Below are positions 30,258-45,670 of a stretch of DNA of 64,000 nucleotides, piece by piece. A program made the position numbers and the translations under genes. The notes beneath the pieces are model-generated. The model saw only the letters and a list, made by a program, of their open reading frames with translations. It was not told where the DNA came from and did not search any database. Each line of letters opens with the position of its first letter. Position 1 is the stretch's first letter. Source of the stretch: Komagataeibacter sp. FNDCR2 (GTDB lineage Bacteria; Pseudomonadota; Alphaproteobacteria; Acetobacterales; Acetobacteraceae); contig NZ_JAIWOU010000001.1 in NCBI RefSeq assembly GCF_021295395.1, positions 2,558,501 to 2,622,500 on the forward strand. The letters run 5' to 3'.

Positions 30258-30929
30258 GTGAATGCGCTGCTGGCAGGCCTTACACTTCTGATCATTGGCG
30301 ACAGCCATGTAACATTCAAGGACTCCCTCCTCTCCATCCTGCCGGACGAATTCACCAGACAGGGCGCCAGGGTCATTACCTATGGCGTATGTTCCTCCAC
30401 CGCCGCGGACTGGGTCGTGCCCAACCCCAATAATGGCTGCGGCGCGGCCCAGCGTATCGGGGATGAACCGATCGGCGCGCCGGACATGAAGCCCGCCTCT
30501 CCACCACCCATGGCGTCCCTGCTTGAAAAATGGCACCCGGATGTCGTCATGGTGGTGCTTGGTGATACAATGGCGGGATACGGCCAGAAAACGATCTCGC
30601 GCGACTGGGTGGACGAGCAGGTCAAGACCCTGACCTACACCCTGGGCAAGACCGCGTGCATCTGGGTCGGGCCGACATGGGGGCAGTACAGCCCGCGCTA
30701 CGGCAAGACCGACCAGCGGACCACCGAAATGGCCACCTTCATGAAGGAGGAAGTGCCGCCGTGCACCTATGTCGACGGGACGGAACTGATGAAGCCGGGC
30801 TCGGTCAGCACCATTGACGGCATCCATGCCACCGCCGCCAGCTATCAGGTCTGGGGCGACGCCATTGTAAAAACGACGCTGCCCATACTTGAAAAGATCA
30901 AGGCGGAAGAACCCGCCGCCGGACAGTAA
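30258..30929 (+). CDS. bcsX: BcsX: SGNH-fold protein of the type II cellulose locus (GTG start)
   Basis: A 223-residue SGNH/GDSL-fold protein. Block I is LLIIGDSHVTF (residues 10-20, nucleophile Ser in GDS) and block V is DGIHATAASY (Asp and His of the DxxH pair). At block III the sequence is VLGDTMAGYG, not the hydrolase GxND, so the oxyanion Asn is missing; acyltransferase-associated SGNH proteins often vary here. In Komagataeibacter type II cellulose operons a protein of this kind (bcsX) precedes bcsY. The GTG at 30258 has GGAG 9 bases upstream; no ATG is available in frame. No signal peptide is evident. bcsY follows after 12 bases. A role in acyl transfer to cellulose is inferred. Confidence 0.72.
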   Translation: MNALLAGLTLLIIGDSHVTFKDSLLSILPDEFTRQGARVITYGVCSSTAADWVVPNPNNGCGAAQRIGDEPIGAPDMKPASPPPMASLLEKWHPDVVMVVLGDTMAGYGQKTISRDWVDEQVKTLTYTLGKTACIWVGPTWGQYSPRYGKTDQRTTEMATFMKEEVPPCTYVDGTELMKPGSVSTIDGIHATAASYQVWGDAIVKTTLPILEKIKAEEPAAGQ

Positions 30930-30941
30930 GGCGCATGGCTG

Positions 30942-32168
30942 GTGCCGCGCCGCCAGAACGCGATGCAGCCAGCCGGTAGAATGACGGTATTTCATGGGTA
31001 TCCGGTTATGAGCCAAGGGCAGGCGGCAGTTCCCGCGCGCAGTACGTGGCGGCAGATCCTCCGTAATGAATTCTTTCCCACGGACCGGCGGCGCGACATC
31101 GATGGCCTGCGTGGGCTGGCCATCATTTTCGTGGTGCTGTTTCATGCCGGGTGGCTGGATGGCGGCTTTATCGGCGTTGACATATTTATCGTCATTTCCG
31201 GTTATTTCATCGGCCGTTCCGCGTTGATCCAGCAGCCTTTCCAGCCCATGCGCTTCGTCAGCCGCCGGTTGTACCGGCTGCTGCCGGCCCTGTTCTGCAT
31301 GGTCGCGGCCATATCCGCCGGCATGCTGTGGTGGGTGCTGCAAAGCGACCGCGCCGATATCGCGCTGAACGGGGCGTACGCGCTGGTCTATCTGTCCAAT
31401 ATCTGGGCGGCGGGCCATGTGGGATATTTCGAGGGGCAGAGCATTGCCTACCCCTTCCTGCATACATGGTCGCTTTCCCTTGAGATGCAGTTCTATCTCG
31501 TCATTTTCATCATGGCGCTGGTGCTTACGTACACCCATCACCGCAACCGGGGGCTGGTCGGGATTTTCGTGCTGTCGTTGGGATGCAGCCTGTACAGCAA
31601 CCATGTCGGCAATTCTCAGGGCTACTATAATATCCTCGACCGCCTGTGGGAGTTCTCACTGGGGGCGCTGATCTGGATTGTTCCCCGCCCGCGTTTCAGT
31701 CGCGCGGTGTCCAACATCGTCTGCGGCCTTGGGGTGGCCTTCCTTTTTTACGCGGCCTTTTCTTACCCGCTCCGGTTCGCCTGCCCCTCCTACATGATCG
31801 CCCTGCCGTGCCTGGCGGTCATGGGTGTCATCATGTGCCCGCAGCATGATGTCGCGCGCATGCTGCTCGTACCCGTTTCCCCTATAGGTGTTATTTCGTA
31901 TTCGATATATTTATGGCATTGGCCAGCCATCGTGGTGGCGAACTACCTGTTGATGTTTCAGGTCCATGGCCTGGTTATGGGGGGTGTGCTGGCGTTGGTC
32001 ATGGTCATAAGCCTGCTCAGTTACGTGGGGATCGAACGGGTTTTTCTCGATTATGAAGGCCGCGTGACGCCATCTGTCCGGAATTGCGGCGCATTGGCGC
32101 TGGTGGGCGCGTGCGGCGGGCTGGCGATGGTGCTGTCCTACGTGTCGTTCGTGTCACGTGTGCATTAA
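30942..32168 (+). CDS. bcsY: BcsY: membrane acyltransferase (acyltransferase_3/OafA family)
   Basis: About 390-408 residues with around ten hydrophobic helices. The family signature RRDIDGLRGLAIIFVVLFHAGW contains the catalytic His; GGFIGVDIFIVISGYFI and FVSRRLYRLLPALFCMVA follow, and FLHTWSLSLEMQFYLV is the typical mid-protein motif. Acyltransferase_3 enzymes pass acyl groups to extracytoplasmic sugars. As bcsY of the type II locus it is the proposed cellulose acylase, a role analogous to the Wss acetylation proteins. The start is uncertain: GTG 30942, ATG 30963, ATG 30981 and ATG 31008 are all in frame and no ribosome site is strong. It overlaps the possible GTG start of bcsC. Confidence 0.82.
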   Translation: MPRRQNAMQPAGRMTVFHGYPVMSQGQAAVPARSTWRQILRNEFFPTDRRRDIDGLRGLAIIFVVLFHAGWLDGGFIGVDIFIVISGYFIGRSALIQQPFQPMRFVSRRLYRLLPALFCMVAAISAGMLWWVLQSDRADIALNGAYALVYLSNIWAAGHVGYFEGQSIAYPFLHTWSLSLEMQFYLVIFIMALVLTYTHHRNRGLVGIFVLSLGCSLYSNHVGNSQGYYNILDRLWEFSLGALIWIVPRPRFSRAVSNIVCGLGVAFLFYAAFSYPLRFACPSYMIALPCLAVMGVIMCPQHDVARMLLVPVSPIGVISYSIYLWHWPAIVVANYLLMFQVHGLVMGGVLALVMVISLLSYVGIERVFLDYEGRVTPSVRNCGALALVGACGGLAMVLSYVSFVSRVH

Positions 32169-32211
32169 GGCACACAGGTCCCATGTGTCCTGGGTGGTGC
32201 GGTCCGTCCGT

Positions 32212-35200
32212 ATGCCCATGCCCAGAGGCATGCATAATGTGACGCTGCTATGTGGTGCTGTATTATGCATGCCCTTGGGTATGGCGCATGCCGATGGCGG
32301 CGTGGCCCCTGGCTCCCCACAGGTCGCGCAGGCAGGTGTGACGGCGGCGGGCGCGCCCGTGCCTGAAAACGCGGCGCTCGACCTGCTGCTGCGCAAGGCG
32401 GAGTACTGGATCGGGCAGCAGGAATATGACAAGGCGACCGAGGTGGTGCGTGAAGCGCGCAGCATCGCCCCCGACAGCAGCCGGGCCCTGTACGACCAGG
32501 GCCGCATCCAGATCGGGACGGGCGACGCCGCGGCCGCGGGCCAGACGCTCAGGCAGCTTTCGCGCAATGGGGATGCATCGTCCTATATCGGCATGCTCAA
32601 TGCCCAGATCAGGTACGGTAAACTCGACCCGCAGGCATTGGCCGAGGCGCGCCATCTGGCTGAAACCGGCAAGATGATGCAGGCCATGTTCAAGTACAAG
32701 GCCCTGTTCAAGAACGGCGATCCGCCGCCGGATCTGGCGCTGGAATATTATCGTGTGCTGGGTTCCACCATCCTTGGGTATCAGGAAGCGCGGACCAAAC
32801 TGGGCGAATACGTCGCCCATAGCCCCGAAGACCTGGATGCGCGCCTGGCCTATGACCGGATCCTGACCTACCGCATTACCAACCGCGAACAGGGGCTGAG
32901 TGACCTGAAGGTGCTGGCCCGCACCGCCAGTTCCAGCGCCATCCGGCAGGATGCGGCGGCATCGTGGCGTCTGGCCCTGACATGGGAGCCCATAACGGGT
33001 TCCAGCATGCCATTGTACCGGGAATGGCTGGAAGCCCACCCCGATGACGCGGAGATACGCGATCTCCTGCAAAAGGCGCAGGAAACGCAGTCCGGCATCG
33101 ATGCGGCCACCTACCGCATAGAAGGCTACAAATTCCTGTCGCGGAAGGATTACGTCGCGGCGGCCCGTAGTCTGCATCAGGCGCTGGCGCTCAATCCCGA
33201 CGACCCGGATACGCTGGGTGGTCTGGGGGTGGTGGCCGAGGGAGAACAGCGTCTGGAGGATGCGAAAAAGTATTTTGCCCAGGCCGTCGCCGCCGATCCC
33301 GCGCCCGACAGCCACTGGCGCACGGCGTTGCAGCATGTCTACGCCGGGGGCGGCCCAGACCCGCTGGTGGGGAATGCCCAGTCCGCCATTGATGAGGGGC
33401 GTCTGGCCGCGGCCCAGGACGATATCGACCGCCTGCGCCAGCATCCCGGCGCGACCGAGGCGGCGCTGTTCTTGCAGGCGGCGCTGTATCGCAAGCAGGG
33501 CAGGCTGGATGAGGCCGCGCGGGTGTATCGGGAAATCCAGCGCATTTCGCCCCATAATCCCGAAGCTCCCTATAACCTTGCCTATGTCCTGATCCAGCAG
33601 GGGCGCGGGGATGAGGCCGATGACCTGATCCGGCTCGTGGCGCAGAAGGAGCCACGCCGGGCGTCGCTCCTGCGCGGCATGCAGTTGCGTTACGCGGCGG
33701 CGCATACCGGCGACCTGACGCGGCGTATCGCCCTGCTGCGCAGCGCGCTGGCCTATATGCCGGATAATCCGTGGGTATATCTCGAACTGGGCAATGCGCT
33801 GTACGACAACGGGCAGGTTGCGCAGGCGGACGCCCATATGCGGCAGTTGACCAGCGGCCGCGATGTCACCGATGCAGATATCGAGGCCGGTGTCCTGTAT
33901 GCGGTGGCGCATCATGACATCACCACGGCGGCCCGGCTGTATGCCCGTCTGCCCCCGTCCGCCCGCACGCCCGCCATGGTGCAGGCGGAGCGCCAGATCC
34001 GCCTGACGCAGATGGTCCGCGCCATCGACCCCCAGGCGCCCGATTACAGGGACCAGCTCATGGCGCTGGCCAATGCGCCCGACCCCGATGGCACGCTGGG
34101 CACGATCATCGCCACAGCCTTCATGGATCGCGACGATCCCCGCTCCGCGCGCAAGGTGCTGCGGTATGAGAACCAGATCACCCCCAATCCCGAACCGGAG
34201 CAGAAACTGGGCTATGCCGGAACGTCGCTGCGCATAGGCTCATTGCGGGACGCACAGGCCTACCTGAAGGATTTTGACCAGCTCGCGGCTGAAAACCCCG
34301 ATGGCATCACCAGTGACCAGATGCGTGTGCGCGAGCAGATCGAGATCGGCATGACCATCATGAAATCGGACCGGCTGGACCAGGGCGGCAAACCCGGCCA
34401 GGCGGAAAAGCTCATGCTTCCCCTTGTCGCGGCCAATCCCGATTCGGCCGAAGCCCATCTGGCGCTGGGCCGTGTTTACGAGACACAGGACAGGGCGCGC
34501 CACGCGCTGGGCGAGGATCTGGCCGCGCTGAAGCTGCGCCAGAACGACCGCTACATCCTGGCCTCCATCGTGCGGGACGCCACCGGGGCGGGGGATCTGG
34601 CGCTTGCGCATGAATACATGCAACGCCTGACCGAGCTTGCCCCCGACAGTTCGATTACATGGGAAGTGCGTTCGGAGATCGACCGGGTGGAGGGGCATGC
34701 CAGAGAACAGCTTGCCGACCTAGAACGGGCGCATGACCTGCAATGCAGTAGCAGCCCGAGCGTGAAATGCAACGCGCCGGACGCGTTCGTGCCCGATTAC
34801 ATGTGGCCGGACATGGAGGGAGACCATAACGAGCCGAAGGCGGTCACGCTTTCCGCCATGTACCCCTCCCTGCCCAGTGACACGGTGCTGCAGGCGACCG
34901 AGCGCAATATTGCCTACCTGCGCGAATCCCTTGCGCCGCAGATTGACGCGAATGTCTATATTCGCGGCCGTACCGGCGCGCGCGGGCAGGGGCAGATGAC
35001 GGAAGTGTCCGTGCCGATTACAGGCTCGTATCCGCTTTCCTCATGGGAACACCGGCTGACCTTCTCCGCCACGCCCACATTCCTGTTCACGGGCAATCCG
35101 GGCCAGAGCACCTCCATCTACAACCCGAGCACCTTCGGAACGCAGGCCGTCAATGGCGGCAAGGCCAGGGATCATTACAATATACAGGGCATCGCGCTGG

Positions 35201-36055
35201 GCGTAAGCTACATGAACCGCTGGTTTACGGGCGATGTGGGGACATCCCCCCTCGGCTTTCCCATCACCAATGTCGTGGGCGGGGTCGAATTCGCGCCCCA
35301 ACTGGCCCGGAACCTCAGGCTGCGGATCAGCGGCGGTCGGCGCATGGTTACGGATAGCGAACTGTCCTATGGCGGCATGACCGACCCCGCGACCGGCAGG
35401 ACATGGGGCGGTGTCACCCGCATTTTCGGCCATGGATCGCTGGAATACGCATCCGCGTTATGGACGGCCTATGTCGGCGGTGGCGGCGCCTATCTGGAGG
35501 GGACCAATGTGGTCAGCAATACCGAAGGGGAAGCCAGGGCGGGCGGGAATGCAAAGGTATGGCGCTACAGGGACCGGCAGGCGCTGCGCGTGGGGCTGGA
35601 TCTCATGTATTTCGGGTATGAACGCAACACCTACTTCTTCACGCTGGGGCAGGGGGGGGTACTTCTCTCCCAGCGCGTATTACGGGGCGATGGTTCCGGT
35701 GGAATGGTCCGGCCATGCGGGGCGCTGGAACTGGTTCCTGCGTGGCGAGGCGGGGTACCAGAACTACCATAGCGGCGGGTCGCCCTATTATCCCCGCAAT
35801 CCCGGCCTGCAGGCCGAACTGCCGCAGGGCAGGGGGCGGTTCGGGGGCGAGGGGGCCAGCGGGCTTGCGGGTAATTTCGGGGCGCGGCTGGTCTATCAGC
35901 TTACACCGCAGTTCAGGCTGGGGGTGAACGGTGGCTACACCCGCGCGGGGAGCTGGTCTGAATCCACCGGCATGCTGCTGTTCCATTATGTATTCGATGC
36001 GCCCGATACCCCGCAGGCCCCGGGATCGTCACGCCTGTCGGTTGATGAGGACTGA
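32212..36055 (+). pseudogene. bcsC: BcsC cellulose export protein (TPR + outer-membrane barrel), interrupted by a +1 frameshift
   Basis: A signal peptide (MHNVTLLCGAVLCMPLGMAHA) is followed by about 850 residues of tetratricopeptide-like helices (for example AARSLHQALALNPDDPDTLGGLG and AARVYREIQRISPHNPEAPYNLAYVL). The C-terminal BCSC_C barrel begins near SLAPQIDANVYIRGRTGARG. BcsC guides cellulose across the periplasm and outer membrane. The frame from 32212 runs to a stop at 35772, giving a 37-residue foreign tail. Removing one G from the G8 run at 35652-35659 restores GQGGYFSPSAYYGA and continues to TGA 36055, a product of about 1280 residues, the normal family length. The last about 130 residues, several barrel strands, are lost without that correction. 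Start choices are GTG 32158, ATG 32212 and ATG 32230. It may be a true mutation, a slippage switch or a sequencing error. Confidence 0.88.
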
Positions 36056-36060
36056 ACCCC

Positions 36061-37779
36061 ATGGCCAGATGCAGACAATGGCTTGTGAACACGAAATACC
36101 ACGCTCTTGCCGCCTGCGCGCTGGTGGCGCTGGGGCCGTGCGCGCCGCTGGCGCGGGGCGCGTCCTGCCCGGTGGGGATGGGGGAGGCCACTGTGTGCAT
36201 CCCGGCGGCGGACAGGCTGTCCGGCGGCATGGACCGCGCGCCGGGCGTGCATGACGATGCCCGGGCCGGTTACGCGCCCGGCAATATCTGGCAGGTCGAT
36301 GGCCGGGTCTGGCGGGCGGTATCCGTGGCGGCGGGGGCCGCGCGGTGGGAGCCGGTCGCCACCGCGCGCCCTGCGGATGCGCTGGCGGGCCATGCCGTGT
36401 TCGCAGGGGGGACGGTACGGATGGTCACGGGCTATGTGGGGCCCGCCGTGGATGTGGAAACCCTGCATGCGGGCCAGCCGGTCGTGACCACCATCGGTAT
36501 CGGGGCGGATGGGGCCTTTGACCACGCGGCCCTGCGCGCGGTTCTGGCCGGGCGGGATGCGGGAACATTCGCGACCGTGCTGCGGGTGCATGACCAGAGC
36601 GGGCATGGCCACGACCTGGAGGCCACGCCGGGCCGCCATGTCGTCCATATCGGGGAGGTGCAGGTCGCGGGGAACGAGACCCTCTCATGGGGGGAGGAAA
36701 ACGGGCCGGGCGGGTTTGTCATCCCCGCATCGCTGCGGGTTCCGGCGGATGATTTCTTTTTTGGGACAGTAGGCACCTATGCCTCCTCCAATTCCGGGTA
36801 CGCGGCCTATCCCGTGCCGGTAATGCTGGGGAGCGCCGTGCGCGGGCGCGTGTTCAAGGCATTTTTCGGCAGCTACAGCCTGGATGGATTCGCCCATATC
36901 GCCGATGCCACAAGCCCAGACCGCCGGACGGACATGGTCATTACCAATTCCCCCGCGGCCTTTGATGTCCATGCGACGCGGGGCGGATATGGTCTCGATT
37001 GCGCGAATGCCTCCGCCCGGCTGGACTCCCCCATCGCGCCGGGACAGATGAATGGCGGCTATATCGGCTTCAATGCCGATGGCGGGCCATGGTTCTCGCA
37101 GGGGCGCAATACGGGACAGTGGAGTGGTCTGGTCATTGCCGACAGAGCGCCCGATCCGGCGGGGCTTGCGGCGTTCCAGGCCTCGGCCGCGGCGGTGGGG
37201 AACTACATGCCCCAGCTTCGCGCCACGCTTGTGGTGATCGGGGATAGCCGGTCGGAGGGGTTCCGCCTGTCGGATGGCCGGAACTGGCCCTATCTCATGC
37301 AGCAGTATGGGCGCTACCAGAGCTATGACTTCGCGGTGTCCGGCGCGACGACACGACAGATGCTGGGCATGGTCGCGGCGGCGGAAGCCGTGGGCCAGCG
37401 GACCACCGGCAGCCGGGTCGCGGTCATTTTTGGCGGGTATAACGACCATCTGGAGTTCAACCACATCCCGGCGGAGGAGACGGTACGCAACATCGCCAGC
37501 ATGGTGCGACGCCTGAAAAAGGCTGGCTTCACGGTCGCCCTGATCGATGAGACCAACACATCCGGCGCACCGCGCGCGGCGCTGCGCGCGGCGGTGCGCG
37601 CCGGGACCATCACGCCCGATATCGAGATCGACCCCTTCGCGCCCGACCAGCCGCTGTACAATGTGGAGAACCATACCAACTGGAGCAATGACGATACCCA
37701 CCCCTCCCAGACCGGCCATGCCATCCTGGCCAGCATGGTGTGGCGGCAGGTCGGCGCCCGCCTGCTGCCCGCGCGTTGA
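36061..37779 (+). CDS. Secreted two-domain SGNH hydrolase of the cellulose locus (ORF569-like)
   Basis: A 572-residue exported protein. The signal peptide ends near ARG-ASCPVG (about residue 32). A middle domain holds VLRVHDQSGHGHDLEATPG, the DQSGNGNDL-type signature of arabinofuranosidase B or LamG-like jelly-roll folds, and probably binds carbohydrate. The C-terminal SGNH domain has all catalytic blocks: GDSRSEG (Ser396), GGYNDH (Asn461) and DDTHPS (Asp544, His547). It starts 5 bases after the bcsC stop. A protein of this size is described directly downstream of bcsCII in the type II operon. Likely a periplasmic or extracellular esterase or acyltransferase acting on cellulose or another glycan; substrate unproven. 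Confidence 0.75.
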   Translation: MARCRQWLVNTKYHALAACALVALGPCAPLARGASCPVGMGEATVCIPAADRLSGGMDRAPGVHDDARAGYAPGNIWQVDGRVWRAVSVAAGAARWEPVATARPADALAGHAVFAGGTVRMVTGYVGPAVDVETLHAGQPVVTTIGIGADGAFDHAALRAVLAGRDAGTFATVLRVHDQSGHGHDLEATPGRHVVHIGEVQVAGNETLSWGEENGPGGFVIPASLRVPADDFFFGTVGTYASSNSGYAAYPVPVMLGSAVRGRVFKAFFGSYSLDGFAHIADATSPDRRTDMVITNSPAAFDVHATRGGYGLDCANASARLDSPIAPGQMNGGYIGFNADGGPWFSQGRNTGQWSGLVIADRAPDPAGLAAFQASAAAVGNYMPQLRATLVVIGDSRSEGFRLSDGRNWPYLMQQYGRYQSYDFAVSGATTRQMLGMVAAAEAVGQRTTGSRVAVIFGGYNDHLEFNHIPAEETVRNIASMVRRLKKAGFTVALIDETNTSGAPRAALRAAVRAGTITPDIEIDPFAPDQPLYNVENHTNWSNDDTHPSQTGHAILASMVWRQVGARLLPAR

Positions 37780-37902
37780 CAGCGTGGGGCGCGTGGGGGA
37801 GCATCAGGCCACGACCGGTGGCGTGCCGGAAATGCGGGTGGTTGCACTTTGACGGATTCCAGATAGGGAAGCCCGACAGTTCAGGGGATACATGATTATC
37901 TG

Positions 37903-39000
37903 ATGCGGTTTGATCTCAAGACATCCGGCCTGCCAGCCCACCCGGCCCCGATCATGGGGCGTCGCGCCATGCTGGCGGCCCTTATGGCCATGGGGGGCGT
38001 GTCCATGTCGTCCATCACCGGGTTCGCCGCGCCCGGGGCGGCGGATGACGTGGCACGGCAATGGGCCGTGTTCCGGCGGAAATATTTCCGCCCCGATGGC
38101 CGCATTGTCGATACGGGCAATAACGGGGAATCCCACAGCGAGGGTCAGGGATACGGCATGCTTTTCTCCGCCGCCGCTAATGACCTCCCTTCGTTCGAGG
38201 CGATGTGGAACTGGACGCAGGCCACCTTGCGGCACACACGGGACAGTCTGTTTTCATGGCGTTTCCTGCCCGGTCAGGTACCCGCCGTGCCCGATACGAA
38301 CAACGCGACCGATGGGGACCTGCTGATCGCCCTTGCCCTTGCCCGCGCCGGGCGGCGGTGGCAGCGCGTGGATTTCGTGCAGGAAGCCGTGGCGATCTAC
38401 CGCGACGTGCTGCGGCTCATGACCCTGCGGGTGGGAGGCTACAGGGTGCTGCTGCCCGGCGCGCAGGGCTTCGTGTCCCCCGATGCGGTCACGCTCAATC
38501 TTTCCTATTACGTCATGCCCTCGCTGCTTCAGGCCTTTGAACTGACGGCGGACCCGGCATGGCATGGCGTGATGCATGACGGCATGCGCCTCATCCTTCA
38601 GGCCCGCTTCGGCCAATGGCGGCTGCCGCCGGACTGGGTCTCGATCGACCGGCGCACACAGGCCCTTTCCATCGCGAAGGGGTGGGCGCCGCGTTTTTCC
38701 TATGATGCGATCCGGGTTCCGCTCTACCTGTACTGGGCCCACATGCTCACGCCGGACCTGCGGGCGGGATACGCCCAGTTCTGGACCCATTTCGGCGCGG
38801 ATGCGCTGCCCGGCTGGATAGACCTGACAACGGGCGCGCGTTCGCCCTATAATGCCCCGCCGGGATATCTGGCGGTCGCGCAGTGCACGGGGCTTGCTTC
38901 ATCGGCAAAATTGCCGACACTTGACCATGCGCCGGATTATTATTCCGCGGCATTGACGCTTCTGGTTTATATCGCGCGGGCAGAGGAGCAGGCGAAGTGA
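37903..39000 (+). CDS. bcsZ: BcsZ / CMCax: GH8 endo-beta-1,4-glucanase
   Basis: A 365-residue glycosyl hydrolase family 8 enzyme (alternative start ATG 37954). A twin-Arg-free export signal spans about residues 19-44 ([16 protein letters not shown] ... GFAAPG). The catalytic acid Glu80 lies in [23 protein letters not shown] and [15 protein letters not shown] (containing the base Asp region) complete the family pattern. BcsZ trims or relieves tangled glucan during cellulose export, and in Komagataeibacter it is needed for normal cellulose I assembly. It follows the SGNH gene after 123 bases, and its TGA overlaps the GTG of bcsH. Confidence 0.93.
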
Positions 39001-40151
39001 GCGGATCAGGGTCAGAAGACAGGGTTGAAGGCGACGGTCAGTCCGGTGCGGTGGGGCGTCCGCGCGATATCGAGCGTGTCCTGCAAAGCTTCGGGGTCGA
39101 GCAGGGATTCGTTTACCGGCCTTTTGTCGATCGCTCCCTTATGGAAACGGAAGAGACATCCGCCGCCACCGACTCCTCCAGCCCCGAAGATCTGGCGGAG
39201 GTCGAGGATCCGTACGACTGGCAGGCCGAAAACGAACCCGGTGAGGAACCACCCGCGGATGAAGTAGTGGACTCCGAACCACCGGCGGAGCAGCTTCTGC
39301 CCCCGCCCGAAGCCAGCACGGCCCCACAGGTGGAACCGCCGGTTGCCGCCATCGCCGCCCCGCATGTGCAAGAGGAACCTGTCGCCATCGCGCCACCCGA
39401 GGTGCAAACGCCCGAGCCCGCCATTGCATCGGCTCCGGAGGGTGTATCGGAACCCGAACCCGAACCCGAACCCGAACCCGAACCCGAACCCGAACCCGAA
39501 CCTGCGCCTGCGCCTGAGCCCGAAATCGTGCCTGAACCCACACCGGAACCCACACCGGAACCCGTGCCCGAAACCACACCCGCGCCCGCGCCGGAGCCTG
39601 AAGTCGGGCCGGCACCGGAGCCGCAGCCCGAAGTCGATGCGCCCCCTCCCGCCATGCCCGTGGCCGCCCCGCAGCCCGCGGCCGATGCTGCCGAGACCGG
39701 GCGGAAGCCCCTGGCCGCCGCAATGCCCGAAACGGTGGCGCCGATTGAAAAAAGTGATGCGGAGCTTCTTCCCCTCCTGCCGCCGGCCGAAGCCGGGGAG
39801 GACTGGATGCCCGTGCCCAAGGCGCGGCACCAGCGTGGCGAACGCCCCCGCCCGGTAAGCCGTGGCTTCGCCTTTCCCCTGCCCGATATCCGCAGGCAGG
39901 CAGAGCGCAGGCTGTTCCGCCCCGCGCCGCTGCCTGTGCGTGTTTCCCGTCCCCAACAGACCAAGGTGAGTACCATGACCAAGTCGAATTCCAGCCCCGC
40001 CAATGAATCCCCCCTCGCGCCGTCCACCGATGGTTCACCCACCATGGAGGAAATGTTCATGATCCTGGGTGGCCGGGCGACCGATCGGCTGACCCCCAAA
40101 TCCACGTTGCGTGACGCCCTGTCGCGCCGCAAGGAAGACGACGAATCCTGA
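38997..40151 (+). CDS. bcsH: BcsH / CcpAx cellulose complementing factor (GTG start)
   Basis: A 384-residue protein specific to cellulose-producing acetic acid bacteria that helps arrange the terminal complexes and interacts with BcsD. The N-terminus is [20 protein letters not shown]. Residues about 90-240 are an acidic proline-rich linker with a perfect (Glu-Pro)9 run (residues 152-169) encoded by eight GAACCC units plus GAACCT (39450-39503). The conserved C-terminus is [17 protein letters not shown] and [10 protein letters not shown]. The GTG at 38997 overlaps the bcsZ stop. An internal in-frame ATG at 39975 has AAGGTGAG just upstream and could give the conserved last 58 residues alone. Confidence 0.88.
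39450..39503 (+). repeat. GAACCC hexanucleotide microsatellite in bcsH
   Basis: Eight perfect tandem copies of GAACCC (39450-39497) are followed by GAACCT, encoding alternating Glu-Pro. Unit length is a multiple of three, so gain or loss of copies by slippage changes linker length without shifting the frame. Imperfect Pro-Glu repeats continue downstream to about 39640. Confidence 0.95.
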
Positions 40152-40209: not shown

Positions 40210-40415
40210 ACACAGGCGTGGCGGTTGAGGCAGGAACGTGCATCGTCCCATCCCTGGGGCGCGGCACGGCTGGCCACGCAGTTGTCCGAACCCGTAGGAC
40301 CTGTTTGAAGTGACATGGACTGTTCTGATGCACGCGATCGGCAGGCGTGCTGCCCCTCTGACAGTTTTTGAGCGTAACTTTCTGTTTTTGCCGTTTATTT
40401 CGGACGAGTGGTTTT

Positions 40416-43400
40416 ATGTCAGAGGTTGAGTCGCCCACATCGGCGGATTCGGCGTGGTCGCGCCGGTTGGAGCAGTTTCTGGCTTCGCGTCCGGGAATCG
40501 CCATAGTGGTGGCCTTCGCCCTGTGCGCCATGTTCGCGGCCGCCACGGTCACGCTCACGCCCAATCAGCAACTGGTCGTGGCGGGTATCTTTGTGGGTAT
40601 CTTCTTCATCGTCGGCCGGAAGAAGACCCGGCGCGTGCAGGTTTTCCTGGAGGTGCTGTCGGCCGCCGTCTCGCTGCGGTACCTGACATGGCGCCTGACG
40701 GATACGCTCTATTTCAACACATGGATCGAGATCGGGCTGGGCACGCTGCTGCTTACGGCGGAACTCTATGCCCTCGTGATGCTTTTCCTGAGCTATTTCC
40801 AGAGCATCTATCCACTGGGCCGCGCGCCGATCCCGCTGCCGGACAACCCTGCCGACTGGCCTACGGTGGATGTCTACATCCCCACCTATAACGAAGACCT
40901 GAGCATCGTCCGGCTTACCGTTCTGGGCGCGCTGGGCATGGACTGGCCCCGCGACAGGCTGAACGTCTATCTGCTCGATGACGGCAGGCGGCCGGAATTC
41001 GCCCTGTTCGCCGAAGCCTGCGGGGCAACCTACATCGCGCGGCCCACGAACGAACATGCCAAGGCGGGCAATTTCAATTATGCCATCAAGCGTTCATCGG
41101 GCGAATTCATCCTGACGCTGGACTGCGATCATATCCCGACCCGCGCCTTCCTGCAGATCACCATGGGCTGGATGGTGGGTGACCCCAAGATCGCGCTCAT
41201 GCAGACGCCGCATCACTTCTATTCCCCCGACCCGTTCCAGCGCAATCTGGCCGCGGGCTTCCGCACCCCACCCGAAGGCAACCTGTTCTATGGCGTGATC
41301 CAGGACGGAAATGATTTCTGGGATGCGACATTCTTCTGCGGGTCGTGCGCCATCCTGCGGCGTGTCGCGATCGAGGGGATCGGCGGGTTCGCGACCCAGA
41401 CCGTCACCGAAGACGCCCATACCGCCCTGCGCATGCAGCGCGAGGGCTGGTCCACCGCCTACCTGCGCATTCCGCTGGCGGGCGGGCTGGCGACCGAGCG
41501 CCTGATCACCCATGTCGGGCAGCGTGTGCGCTGGGCGCGCGGCATGCTGCAGATTTTCCGTATCGACAACCCCCTGCTGGGGCCGGGCCTGAACTGGGGG
41601 CAGCGGCTGTGCTATCTGGCGGCCATGCTGTCCTTCCTGTTCGCGGTGCCGCGCGTGGTGTTCCTGACCGCGCCGCTGGCCTTCCTGTTCTTCGGGCAGA
41701 ATGTCATCGCCGCATCGCCCGTGGCCGTGCTGGCCTATGCCGGGCCGCACATGTTCCACGCCATCGGCACGGCGTCGCGCATCAACAGGGGCTGGCGCTA
41801 TTCGTTCTGGAGCGAGGTGTACGAAACCACCATGGCGCTGTTCCTGGTGCGCGTGACGGTCGCTACCCTGCTCAACCCCTGGCGTGCGAAGTTCAATGTC
41901 ACGAACAAGGGCGGCGTGCTGGAAAGCGGGTATTTCGATCTGCGCGCGGTCTATCCCAATGTCATTATGGGGGGGCTCATGTTCCTCGGGCTGCTCCGGG
42001 GGCTGTACGGGCTGGCGTTCGAACATGTCGATTTCATCGCCCGGCGCGCCTATCTGCTCAATTCCTGCTGGGCCACGCTCAGCCTGCTGATCATCCTTGC
42101 CGCCGTCGCCGTGGGCCGTGAAACCCATCAGAAACGCTACAGCCACCGTATCCGCGCCAGCCTGCCGGTAAATGTGACCACCGCGGACGGCATTGTGGTC
42201 GCGGGCGTGACCGAAGACCTGTCCATGGGTGGGGCGTCGATCCACATGACATGGCCCCAGCCCATAGTGGGGCCACAGACGGTCGAGATTCACGTCAATA
42301 TCGAAGGGGAGAGCCTGCGCCTGCGCGCGCATGTGATCCGTAGCCGGAACGGCCAGTGCGTGTTCAGGTGGGACATCGGCTCCCTTCAGGAAGAAGCAAG
42401 TATCATCCGCATCGTGTTCGGTCGTGCCGATGCGTGGGTGGACTGGAACGATTACGGAAATGATCGCCCCCTGCGGAGCGTGTGGGATATTTTCGTCAGT
42501 ATTCTGGGCCTGTTCCGTCCCCCCGGGCGCCTCACTCCACGGAAGGGGGCCCGCTATCCCAGTTTCAGTGAGGAAAATGTGTCGACGGATGAAGCCGCAC
42601 CCGGGGCGGGGCGCGCCCAGCGCAGGAACAGGACCGGGATACTGTCTGGTTCACGCAGCCTGAAAATGATACCGCTGCTGGCCATGCTGGCCTGGGCGTC
42701 CACGGCTTACGCGGCGCCCGACCCTTCGGCCGCCGCCACCGCCGCCGCTGCGGGCGCTGCCGATGCGGCGGACGCGGTAGGGGCGGCCGAAGCGGCCGTG
42801 GACAGTGGCGAGAACGCGAGCGGCGCGTCCGCCCAGATGGCCACCACCCATACCTATACGTTCGACCAGCTCGGGGCGCTCACCGCCCTGACCATGCGCA
42901 GCGCGACGCCGCTGCAGGGCCTGCAGTTCGGCATTCCTTCCGACCAGCTCGTCACCTCGGCGCGGCTGATCGTCTCGGGGGCCATGTCGCCCAGCCTGCG
43001 GCCTGAAAACAGCGCCGTGACCATCACGCTGAACGAACAGTATGTCGGCACCCTGCGGCCCACACCGGGCCAGCCCGCGTTCGGGCCGATCGCGTTTGAC
43101 GTGAACCCGATCTTTTTCGTCAACAGCAACCGGCTGAATTTCAGCTTCGCGGTCGGCACGAAAGGCTGCGCCGACCCCATGGACAAGCTGCTGTGGGCAA
43201 GCGTTTCGGAACATTCGCAGCTACAGATCACCACCATCTCGCTTCCCGCGCGCAGGCAGCTTGCCCGCCTGCCACAGCCATTTTACGACAGGGCGGTTGA
43301 CCAGCGCGCGGTCATCCCGGTGGTGCTGGCGGCAAGCTATGACCCCGAGATCCTGACGGCGACTGGCATCGTCGCCTCGTGGTTCGGCAAGCAGACCGAT

Positions 43401-44993
43401 TTCCGTGGCGTCACGTTCCCCGTCTCCTCCACCGTGCCCCGCACGGGCAACGCCATGGCGGTGGGCGTGGTTGCCGAACTGCCCCGCGAACTCGGGCATC
43501 TTTCCGTCGGGGGACCGACGGTGATGGAGGTCGCCAATCCCTTCGATCCCAACGGGACGGTGCTGGTGGTGACCGGGCGTGACCGGGACGAGGTGATTAC
43601 GGCCAGCAAGGGCATAGGCTTCGGTTCGGGCACGCTGCCCGCCACCGACCATGCCGATATCGCGCCCATTGACGTAGCACCCAGCCAGCCCAACGACGCC
43701 CCGGCCTTCATCCCGACCTCGCGCCCGGTGAAGCTGGGGGAACTGGTGCCGGACAGCGAACTGCAGGGCGTGGGTTTCACGCCCGGCGTCATGACCGTGC
43801 CGTTCCGTATCCCGCCGGATCTGTACACATGGCATAGCCGCCCGTACAAGGTGCATGTCCGTTTCCGCTCGCCCGACGGGCCGGTTCTGGATGTCGCCCG
43901 CTCGCACCTGGATGTCAGCATCAACAACATCTACCTGCGTTCCTTTTCCCTGCGTGAAAACAACGGGGAAATAGGGAAGGCGCTGGCGCATATCGGTCTG
44001 GGCAACACATCGGGGGTCGAGAACCGTATTGCCACGGTCCAGCCGTGGATGGTTTACGGCAAGAACCAGTTGCAGTTCTATTTCGATGCGATGCCCATGT
44101 CCTCCGCCGGAGCCTGCAAGGCGGGGCCGGCCCTGCTGCACCTGTCGGTCGATCCTGACTCCACCATCGATTTTTCCAATGCCTTCCACATCACGACCAT
44201 GCCGAACCTGGCGTATATGGCCAGCGCGGGGTTTCCCTTCACCACCTATGCCGACCTGTCGCATACGGCGGTCGTGCTGCCCGATCACCCCGCCGCCCCC
44301 GAAATCGGGGCGTTTCTGGATCTGATGGGCTTCATGGGGGCCACGACGTGGTACCCGGTGGCCGGTGTTGAAATCGTCACCGCCGACCATGTGAGCGATG
44401 TGGCGGACAGGAACCTGATCGTCCTGTCCACGCTGGCGGAAAGCGCGGATGTCGCGCCCCTGCTGGCGAATGCGGCCTATCAGATTTCGGACGGGCACCT
44501 GCACATGGCCGCCCGCTCCGCGCTGAATGGGGTCTGGAACGCGTTTGAAGATCCGCTCTCGGCCCTCAGGCGGCACGCGCCCACGGAGATCGACACCGAC
44601 CTTACGGGGGGTGTCGGCGCGATGGTGGAGGCGCAGTCGCCACTCATGGCCGGGCGCACCGTGCTGGCCTTCCTGTCCGGTGACGCGCCGGGCCTGAACC
44701 ACCTGGTCCAGACACTGAACCTGCGCAAGAACCAGCCTGACATCCAGGGCGACCTGGTGCTGGTGCATGGCGATGCCGTGTCGTCCTATCGCGGGTCGCC
44801 GGTCTATACCGTGGGGTCGGTGCCGTTATGGATGTGGCCGGACTGGCATATGCACAACCGCCCGGTACGGGTGATGGTGGTCGGCCTGATCGCCTGCGTG
44901 CTGCTGACGGCGGTGATGTCGCGCGCGCTGGTCCGCCACGCCCGCCGCCGCTACAAGGCGCTGCAGGTTCAAAAGCGCACCTTCCGTGACTGA
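40416..44993 (+). CDS. bcsAB: BcsAB: fused cellulose synthase catalytic and periplasmic subunits
   Basis: A 1525-residue fusion. The BcsA half (about 1-745) has membrane helices, the GT2 core [19 protein letters not shown] (Asp188-189), LDCDH (DxD, Asp236/238), TED (331-333) and QRVRW (369-373). Its PilZ domain, with RYSHR (Arg574, Arg578) and DLSMGG (Asp601-Gly606), binds c-di-GMP and opens the gate for UDP-glucose. The BcsB half starts with a signal-like segment near residue 751 ([16 protein letters not shown]), has the carbohydrate-binding beta domains, and ends with a membrane helix [16 protein letters not shown]. The fusion is typical of Komagataeibacter. ATG 40416 is preferred over an in-frame GTG 40368. 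All catalytic residues are intact. Unusually, bcsC does not follow. Confidence 0.96.
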
Positions 44994-45199
44994 CCGGCGC
45001 GGCATGGACGTGAGCATTTCACGCGGTGTGGCGGGGATGCCAATGCCGCTGGCTTGCGGCCACGTTTGGTGGCAGAGTAGGTTATAGTTGTTTTATCCGC
45101 AGTCCCGGTGCGGCATGGTGGCGGCGCCATCATCGCTACGACAGCACGACCGCGGGGGAGTGCCATGATTTCGAACCACTATCTTGTTATGGACCAGTA
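44994..45199 (+). other. 206-base gap between bcsAB and bcsD where bcsC is expected
   Basis: In type I acetobacterial operons bcsC lies here. The gap has no long frame and no recognisable TPR or barrel remnant in any forward frame that I could read. A short frame ending in YLVMDQ stops just before bcsD but is too short to interpret. A TTATAGTTGTTTTATCC stretch (about 45080-45098) is AT-rich relative to the surroundings and could belong to a promoter for bcsD. Confidence 0.45.
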
Positions 45200-45670
45200 A
45201 TGACAACTTTCAAGAAACAACCGGATTTTTCCCTGTTCCTTCAGGCCCTGTCCTGGGAAATTGACGATCAGGCCGGGATCGAGGTCAGGAACGAGCTTCT
45301 GCGCGAGGTCGGTCGCGGCATGGCGGGCCGTCTTGCGCCGCCGCTGTGCAACACGATCGATACCCTGCAGATCGAACTCAACGCCCTGCTGTCCATGATC
45401 GGCTGGGGCTATGTCTCGCTCGAACTGCTGAGCGAGGAAAAGACCCTGCGCATCGTGCATGAGGACCTGCCGCAGGTTGGCAGCGCGGGTGAGCCGCCGG
45501 GAACCTGGCTGGCTCCGGTGCTGGAGGGGCTGTACGGCCGCTGGATCACGTCACAGCCGGGCGCGTTCGGGGATTACGTGGTGATGCGCGATCTGGAGGC
45601 GGAAGATCTGGATTCCGTGCCGCGCCAGACCATCATCCTTTACATGCGCGTCCGCAGCAGCTCGCTGTAA
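45200..45670 (+). CDS. bcsD: BcsD cellulose synthase subunit D
   Basis: A 156-residue periplasmic protein without a classical signal peptide, as is usual for BcsD. It matches the family at FSLFLQALSWEIDDQAG, ELLREVGRGMAGRL, LCNTIDTLQIELNALLSMIGWGYV and the C-terminal TIILYMRVRSSSL. BcsD forms an octameric ring that channels four glucan chains and supports the linear arrangement of terminal complexes and cellulose crystallisation. ATG 45200 directly follows a TAA; an in-frame extension to 45026 is non-homologous. The usual next gene, the beta-glucosidase bglX, is not present downstream. Confidence 0.94.
   Translation: MTTFKKQPDFSLFLQALSWEIDDQAGIEVRNELLREVGRGMAGRLAPPLCNTIDTLQIELNALLSMIGWGYVSLELLSEEKTLRIVHEDLPQVGSAGEPPGTWLAPVLEGLYGRWITSQPGAFGDYVVMRDLEAEDLDSVPRQTIILYMRVRSSSL

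Follow-up and report, generated by a model that had tools for sequence, protein, structure and literature searches.

A gene in a cellulose operon of Komagataeibacter sp. FNDCR2 encodes a protein, predicted to be secreted via a signal peptide, in which a beta-sandwich resembling the catalytic domain of GH54 arabinofuranosidases is followed by an SGNH hydrolase domain. With moderate confidence, we favour the reading that this protein is a secreted polysaccharide O-acyl esterase, which would act on the glucan modified by BcsX and BcsY. Its gene is firmly linked to the putative cellulose acylation cassette of the operon, and its relatives outside cellulose operons include proteins of acetic-acid-bacterial prophages.

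The SGNH enzyme of bcsII is not new, and the interpretation given in the preliminary description is already in print. Szymczak et al. in 2022 described the orthologue as 'bcsZ' of bcsII, with a signal peptide, a lectin/jelly-roll middle part and a Ser403/Asp550/His553 triad (PMC9318390). Judged by orthology and place, the window gene is the same gene; as the name BcsZ also belongs to the GH8 enzyme, we write SGNH gene throughout. What is new here is the GH54-like fold of the middle domain, the conserved gene order, the prophage kinship and the genomes with a single BcsA. The words 'phage' and 'GH54' are absent from the available text of PMC9318390, and a literature search, with most subscription journals outside its scope, found no paper that connects bcsII with GH54 or with the tail proteins of phages. 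In the same search the name ORF569, from Umeda 1999, which may denote the window SGNH gene, returned one unrelated paper only. A figure legend of 2025 places an 'SGNH/GDSL hydrolase' of bcs operons among cellulose hydrolases, which may be the gene described here (PMC12412545).

The locus

The gene occupies positions 36061-37779 on the plus strand of the window, the whole stretch of 64,000 nucleotides that was analysed. It starts with ATG and encodes 572 residues in an intact frame with no internal stop. Upstream, on the same strand, lie bcsX (30258-30929, named by orthology and order), bcsY (30942-32168) and bcsC (32158-36055, with TPR and BCSC_C, type II by operon order). BcsY, a membrane acyltransferase of 408 residues, has Acyl_transf_3 as its sole Pfam match. 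BcsX is reported as SGNH-like, although it gave no Pfam or NCBIfam match; no signal peptide is apparent by eye, and its third block reads, also by eye, GDT and not GxND. Downstream follow a GH8 endoglucanase (37903-39000, the classical BcsZ/CmcAx), the cellulose-complementing protein CcpA/BcsH (38997-40151), a fused bcsAB synthase (40368-44993) and bcsD (45026-45670, Cellsynth_D, tested from 45188), all on the plus strand. The placement of the gene within a cellulose operon, as given in the preliminary description, is thereby borne out. Since bcsAB and bcsD have no bcsC between them, and bcsX is not preceded by the genome's single bcsAB, the locus reads as a type II cassette (bcsX-bcsY-bcsC-SGNH gene) fused before a type I operon. 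A fused operon of this type has already been described for K. saccharivorans (PMC9318390).

The close coupling to bcsC that had been proposed stands as far as spacing is concerned, only 5 bases separating the stop of the frame that holds the end of BCSC_C from the ATG of the SGNH gene; bcsC itself, however, is broken in the assembly. It is read as two ORFs (32158-35772 and 35411-36055), with a frame change at a run of eight G (35652-35659), so that the end of BCSC_C falls in another frame. At the same site K. melaceti (L052) has six G and then an A. As the window genome (3.29 Mb in 5 contigs) contains one BcsC and one BcsAB, and this bcsC is the only one found, the break is either a sequencing error, a slippery site or the mark of a cellulose-negative strain. 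A scan of 35600-38100 gave one promoter-like site (shuffles 0.5, s.d. 0.8) and one terminator-like site (shuffles 1.2, s.d. 1.4), nothing usable in either case.

Distribution, gene order and selection

Among 299 Acetobacteraceae genomes, 15 match the SGNH protein at E <= 1e-5, namely that of the window, nine with orthologues (51-74% identity) and five with distant copies (28-36%). Of the 19 genomes of the genus, 17 have a match; it is fragmentary in one and runs at length in 16, of which G808 is truncated at the end of a contig. Named genomes gave 24 loci across Komagataeibacter, Novacetimonas, Gluconacetobacter and Acetobacter, the copy of K. melaceti AV382 (85% identical) being nearer to that of the window than the copy of the K. 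saccharivorans type strain (L039, 73%). A class-wide search with the alignment profile matched 21 of 385 genomes; apart from the window's own, the matches listed, 20 in all, cover the SGNH part only. Two relatives without a signal peptide (L017 and L018, genomes G105 and G010) stand beside apparent transporter genes and not in prophages, by eye. Two further relatives (L103 and L105, genomes G147 and G083) are stop-to-stop frames of 766 residues, with a 704-residue ORF in L103, that have a similar sandwich and SGNH domain with another N-terminus.

The SGNH gene stays behind bcsX-bcsY-bcsC while the synthase genes shift. The three genes lie upstream, in this order, in 22 of the 24 named loci; the other two are a 4-kb contig with bcsC only (L040) and a locus that begins inside the SGNH gene (L050). 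The same holds for all nine further family genomes with orthologues besides the window's, several of which overlap the named set. The synthase, on the other hand, is placed variously: AB or B lies upstream in 16 of the 24 loci, and four loci, from three species of Acetobacter, have B upstream and an A match downstream. K. saccharivorans resembles the window in having the type I operon after the SGNH gene, the K. melaceti contig ends past the GH8 gene of the type I operon, and two loci are too short for the position to be seen. The order in A. okinawensis, A. syzygii and A. orientalis (L054, L055, L058 and L059) is B-X-Y-C-SGNH gene-A.

BcsX was found in 21 of the 299 family genomes (E 1e-20), including all ten that have an operon-type SGNH copy. 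The SGNH gene is dispensable to the cassette, because, of 13 genomes of the family whose BcsX is close (>= 73%), three have no SGNH gene match, and because, among the 22 ordered loci, the gene is broken in K. diospyri (L062) and in A. okinawensis JCM 25146 (L059, where the copy lies in more than one frame). Where retained, the gene is under purifying selection: dN/dS is 0.17 against K. melaceti and 0.20 against K. saccharivorans, with neighbouring genes at 0.06-0.26. By part, and for the same two species in turn, the values are 0.20 and 0.33 for the small N-terminal module, 0.10 and 0.18 for the sandwich, and 0.16 and 0.13 for the SGNH domain.

Only three of the 19 genus genomes have a single BcsA match, and 16 have two to four (query with the BcsA part, E 1e-60). 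The three are the window genome, K. saccharivorans LMG 1582 (G135) and K. melaceti AV382 (G809), the latter two being drafts assigned to these strains by their identical contig coordinates, and in each the single BcsA stands beside one cassette with the SGNH gene where the contig lets this be seen. Counted against a single-synthase reading of K. saccharivorans is a 2026 comparison in which strains CV1 and JH1 are reported with bcsA matches on more than one contig (PMC13028821). According to published reports, neither K. melaceti AV382 nor K. saccharivorans LMG 1582 makes cellulose, and other K. saccharivorans strains are high producers (PMC7465234, PMC9318390). Whether bcsII yields an acylated cellulose is difficult to assess in strains that owe most of their pellicle to a different synthase, which is the situation reported for K. 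hansenii (PMC10106347). In a cellulose-producing strain with one synthase, loss of bcsY or of the SGNH gene would show directly in the cellulose made.

Domain structure of the protein

The N-terminus of the protein has a basic start and then a hydrophobic stretch with its peak near residue 16, which gives a signal-like region at residues 1-35 (36061-36165) by hydropathy and conservation among rows. A signal peptide had been noted in the preliminary description, and the K. xylinus orthologue is reported positive with both SignalP and Phobius (PMC9318390), in agreement with it. Two cysteines follow, C36 in 22 of 22 operon rows of the alignment and C46 in 19 of 22, and then a small N-terminal module at residues ~55-101 (36223-36363; R.P...DD..GY..G..W), which alignments show to be common to phage relatives.

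The middle of the protein, residues ~102-386 (36364-37218), is predicted to fold like the catalytic domain of GH54 arabinofuranosidases. An AlphaFold2 model (m57239da79892), built from 24 aligned sequences, has a mean pLDDT of 84.6 and a pTM of 0.86. With VIA-align, the GH54 enzyme 1wd3 ranks first (Z 23.7, 268 aligned residues, rmsd 2.7, 14% identity), the alignment running on the window model from residue 102 to residue 554, which is beyond the sandwich. It took this rank only once the first 1000 Foldseek matches had been realigned; the best 50 Foldseek matches listed for the model include no GH54 protein. The motif DQSGHGHDL, which had been taken as typical of arabinofuranosidase B/LamG-like folds, lies at residues 178-186 (36592-36618), within a sandwich that resembles arabinofuranosidase B in the model. 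The DQSG block aligns to GH54 by hhalign with an E of 7.3e-8 over 65 columns.

Profile comparisons detect the kinship in relatives. The sandwich of the window protein has no Pfam match, PF09206 giving none even at E 5, and a profile search of the PDB with this domain returned zero GH54 chains. The A. orientalis orthologue matches PF09206 at E 2.4e-4 (20.7 bits, below the cut-off of 25), and the relatives L016 and L037 match at E 1.9e-15, over the cut-off, and at E 0.0015, below it. The profile of the sandwich matches 19 of 299 genomes of the family and a single genome, the window's own, in a class set of 289 genomes that includes few of this family.

The vicinal cysteine pair of GH54, present in both GH54 sequences compared, is absent from the window protein, whose cysteines are at 4, 19, 27, 36, 46 and 314, C314 being the only one within the sandwich. 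Since the domain has the GH54 fold without this pair, it is probably a glycan-binding derivative of that fold. Glu221 and Asp297, the catalytic residues of GH54, were mapped on GH54, and its C-terminal half aligns unreliably to the window protein; global and low-threshold hhalign runs made to place these acids gave no credible alignment outside the DQSG block. D282 is invariant in all 24 rows. D340 is found in 19 of them, being replaced (by E, a gap or N) in three Gluconacetobacter rows and absent in both phage rows. By hand alignment, D282 and D340 could sit near the GH54 acids.

The SGNH domain covers residues 387-570 (37219-37770). It matches Pfam Lipase_GDSL_2 at E 2.2e-14 (54.8 bits, cut-off 32.9, residues 392-555) and Lipase_GDSL at E 2.3e-7. 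The full set of Ser396, Asn461, Asp544 and His547 in the preliminary description was found at exactly these positions: S396 in VVIGDSRSEGF, N461 in GGYNDH, and D544 and H547 in DDTHPSQTGH, with codons at 37246, 37441, 37690 and 37699. These four, together with G394, G428 (37342; the conserved second SGNH block) and D462, do not vary in any of the 24 aligned rows (22 from operons and two from phages), and the set is therefore not a product of chance. Structure prediction, which had been suggested as a check, yields an SGNH fold with TesA-type matches at Z ~20; in VIA-align the SGNH proteins rank behind GH54 at Z ~21, with TesA 4jgg at Z 20.9 (167 aligned residues, rmsd 2.3). The best-ranked solved SGNH folds are mostly hydrolases or annotated as such, namely TesA, the putative lipolytic protein 4rsh, CE3 and other acetyl esterases. 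Acyltransferases (3skv, 7trr and 8zbc) are also among the matches of Foldseek and VIA-align. SGNH sequence and fold cannot tell an esterase from a transferase. The window genome has two more Lipase_GDSL_2 sites, at G000:C1:1794067-1794594 and 345216-345509.

Relatives in phages and prophages

The body of the protein, that is, the N-terminal module, sandwich and SGNH domain, recurs in the same order in prophage proteins of acetic acid bacteria. The window protein has a single match in 50,697 phage records, phiAX1 of Acetobacter sp. ATCC 21760, whose protein BCZ75921.1 (29% identity over 77% of the query, E 2e-26) shows the same architecture. It lies at 11749-13533 of L035 (phiAX1 40358-42142) and is annotated as a KilA-N DNA-binding protein, yet its Pfam matches are only the two GDSL families. 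Its neighbours are annotated mostly as hypothetical or regulatory, and the prophage itself is, according to a published report, probably incomplete (PMC8566455). The window protein by itself retrieved no relative from viral contigs; further phage relatives in IMG/VR contigs were reached via the alignment or phiAX1. The L087 copy, within a protein of 842 residues with a tail-family N-terminus, comes after two genes for baseplate wedge proteins and one for a tail fibre, and the L088 copy is preceded by portal, head and adaptor genes. L029, L031, L032, L036 and L037 resemble head-tail or tail modules by eye. In three phage copies (L087, L088 and L019) a long N-terminal region matches tail families of PHROG; no PHROG match was obtained for the window protein, the prophage copy L014 or L015. 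The window gene has neither a tail-type N-terminus nor phage neighbours, having a signal-like start and a place in a bcs operon. A model of the phage protein L085 (pLDDT 76.5, pTM 0.79), in whose alignment 12 of the 19 rows are operon copies, again has 1wd3 first in VIA-align, at Z 25.9.

In an unrooted tree of 34 rows, computed with IQ-TREE, one side of a branch (100/100) consists of the 22 operon rows, and seven phage or prophage rows join with L015 at 91/88, which is below the starred level. Since the tree is unrooted, with several long branches and seven rows of odd composition, it gives no direction of gene flow between phage and operon. Left out of alignment and tree were L050 (cut by its contig), L059 and L062 (broken), L038 (weak match), L014, L084, L086, L089 and L090 (same or nearly the same as kept rows) and L104, L105 and L109 (superfluous, or no frame located); L040 was retained. 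Two lines were tried and set aside. The copy in G228 (L015), considered as a second recruitment to an operon, groups with phage rows (100/100), is convergent to the operon and has no signal peptide by eye. Foldseek against viral models gave 231 matches at E <= 0.001, many annotated as SGNH or tail, with low TM-scores (0.20-0.38 by query length among the matches listed). In G228, the phage-type relative (L030 9707-11320) is convergent to bcsA-B-C-D with no prophage visible by eye, and a second copy lies in the prophage-like L031.

We put forward as a tentative idea, itself somewhat doubtful, that the operon enzyme is a captured receptor-binding deacylase of a prophage tail, which would have shed the region that attaches it to the tail and acquired a signal peptide and the Cys pair. 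In the ancestor of the copies now found in Komagataeibacter, Novacetimonas, Gluconacetobacter and Acetobacter it would have become established behind bcsC, with the finishing of cellulose as its role. If so, phage and host would share one tool on one coat, and the host copy could also change the coat that phages recognise. The kinship gives a concrete clue to the substrate, an acylated surface glycan, and ties cellulose chemistry to contact between phage and host. Two SGNH proteins of Klebsiella prophages, in a tail setting, have been shown to be esterases (PMC13123978).

Function

As an esterase, the protein would work after BcsY, a membrane acyltransferase that, aided by BcsX, would put acyl groups onto the nascent glucan. 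The SGNH enzyme would meet the glucan in the periplasm or outside BcsC, the beta-sandwich may hold it, and removal of acyl groups would then set how much acyl remains and how the fibres pack or stick. Counted for this reading are the invariant catalytic set (24 of 24 rows), the hydrolase-type best folds, the linkage to bcsX-bcsY-bcsC, the purifying selection and the homologues in prophage loci, two tested as tail or head-tail modules. The bcsX/bcsY cassette has an effect, since deletion of bcsY in K. hansenii is reported to alter the fibre network, crystallinity and stiffness (PMC10106347). Against the esterase reading, FTIR of K. hansenii cellulose (PMC10106347) and Raman of the cellulose of another strain (PMC12412545) are reported with no acetyl detected. 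In K. hansenii BcsAB1 is reported as dominant (PMC10106347), and the strain used for FTIR is reported to have no SGNH gene (PMC9318390). Also against it, expression of the SGNH gene in K. xylinus E25 is reported to fall with ethanol while that of bcsY rises (PMC9318390), the gene is dispensable to the cassette, and the structural lists include acyltransferases.

The protein might instead be the periplasmic acyltransferase of the cassette, taking acyl groups from BcsY, which has no fused SGNH domain, and moving them to cellulose; we consider this unlikely. Over its 408 residues BcsY offers Pfam only Acyl_transf_3, and BcsX, in which no signal peptide is visible by eye, is reported in K. xylinus as negative with SignalP but positive with Phobius (PMC9318390), so that the window protein may be the sole secreted SGNH enzyme here. 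SGNH-fold transferases were matched by Foldseek (3skv at E 4.8e-7 and PatB, 7trr, at E 8.2e-5) and by VIA-align (8zbc at Z 18.1), and WssI is reported as an SGNH protein able to acetylate cello-oligomers (PMC10302187). Hydrolases, however, rank higher among the structural matches, and acylation would have to run without the SGNH gene in the three family genomes that keep a close BcsX and lack it. The homologues in prophage loci also speak against a transferase; we know of no acyl donor in such loci.

A main role in attaching cells or acylated glucan to cellulose fibres, with catalysis secondary, has been proposed for the K. xylinus orthologue (PMC9318390) and would suit a large sandwich under the constraint measured (dN/dS 0.10 and 0.18). 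It seems improbable for a protein whose SGNH set, needless in an adhesin, is fully conserved and in which inspection by eye showed neither a cell-wall nor a lipid anchor signature. That the GH54-like domain is itself an active glycosidase, in a two-activity enzyme for a side polymer bearing arabinose or another sugar, is very improbable. The strength of the fold match in the predicted model and the conservation of D282 and D340, which hand alignment may bring near the GH54 acids, would agree with it, but the CC pair is missing, D340 is replaced in three Gluconacetobacter rows and lacking in both phage rows, and the catalytic half cannot be aligned reliably. We retain the esterase reading.

Comparison with known systems

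The nearest described system is 'BcsZ' of K. xylinus E25, which the window protein resembles in its place in the operon, its length (576 vs 572 residues), a signal peptide that is predicted for the window protein, a middle part of lectin/jelly-roll type, and the triad and oxyanion residues of a C-terminal SGNH domain. The middle was assigned by Szymczak et al. in 2022 to thrombospondin and plant lectins over residues 192-382, whereas GH54 is the top structural match here, over ~102-386. With 1wd3 the protein shares the fold and the DQSG block; it differs in having no vicinal cysteine pair and in the SGNH domain that follows the sandwich, where GH54 in 1wd3 is followed by CBM42. The prophage proteins (phiAX1 BCZ75921.1 and the IMG/VR relatives) share the three parts in the same order, but they lack a signal peptide by eye, whereas the operon copies have a signal-like start and mostly the Cys pair.

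CE2 enzymes (2wab and 2wao) likewise have an SGNH domain with a beta-sandwich ahead of it, and by their titles complexes with cello-oligomers have been solved. They are in the list for the phage L085 model, at Z ~17, but are not among the best 50 listed for the window model. CE2 enzymes are not known to have the usual Asp, whereas the window protein has a full triad. Genes wssGHIJ are reported absent in K. xylinus E25 (PMC9318390). WssI and WssF, from the acetylated-cellulose operon of Pseudomonas, are also SGNH enzymes attached to cellulose synthesis; WssI, reported as a transferase (PMC10302187), is set beside the window protein by description only, and BcsX is reported to resemble WssF (PMC9318390).
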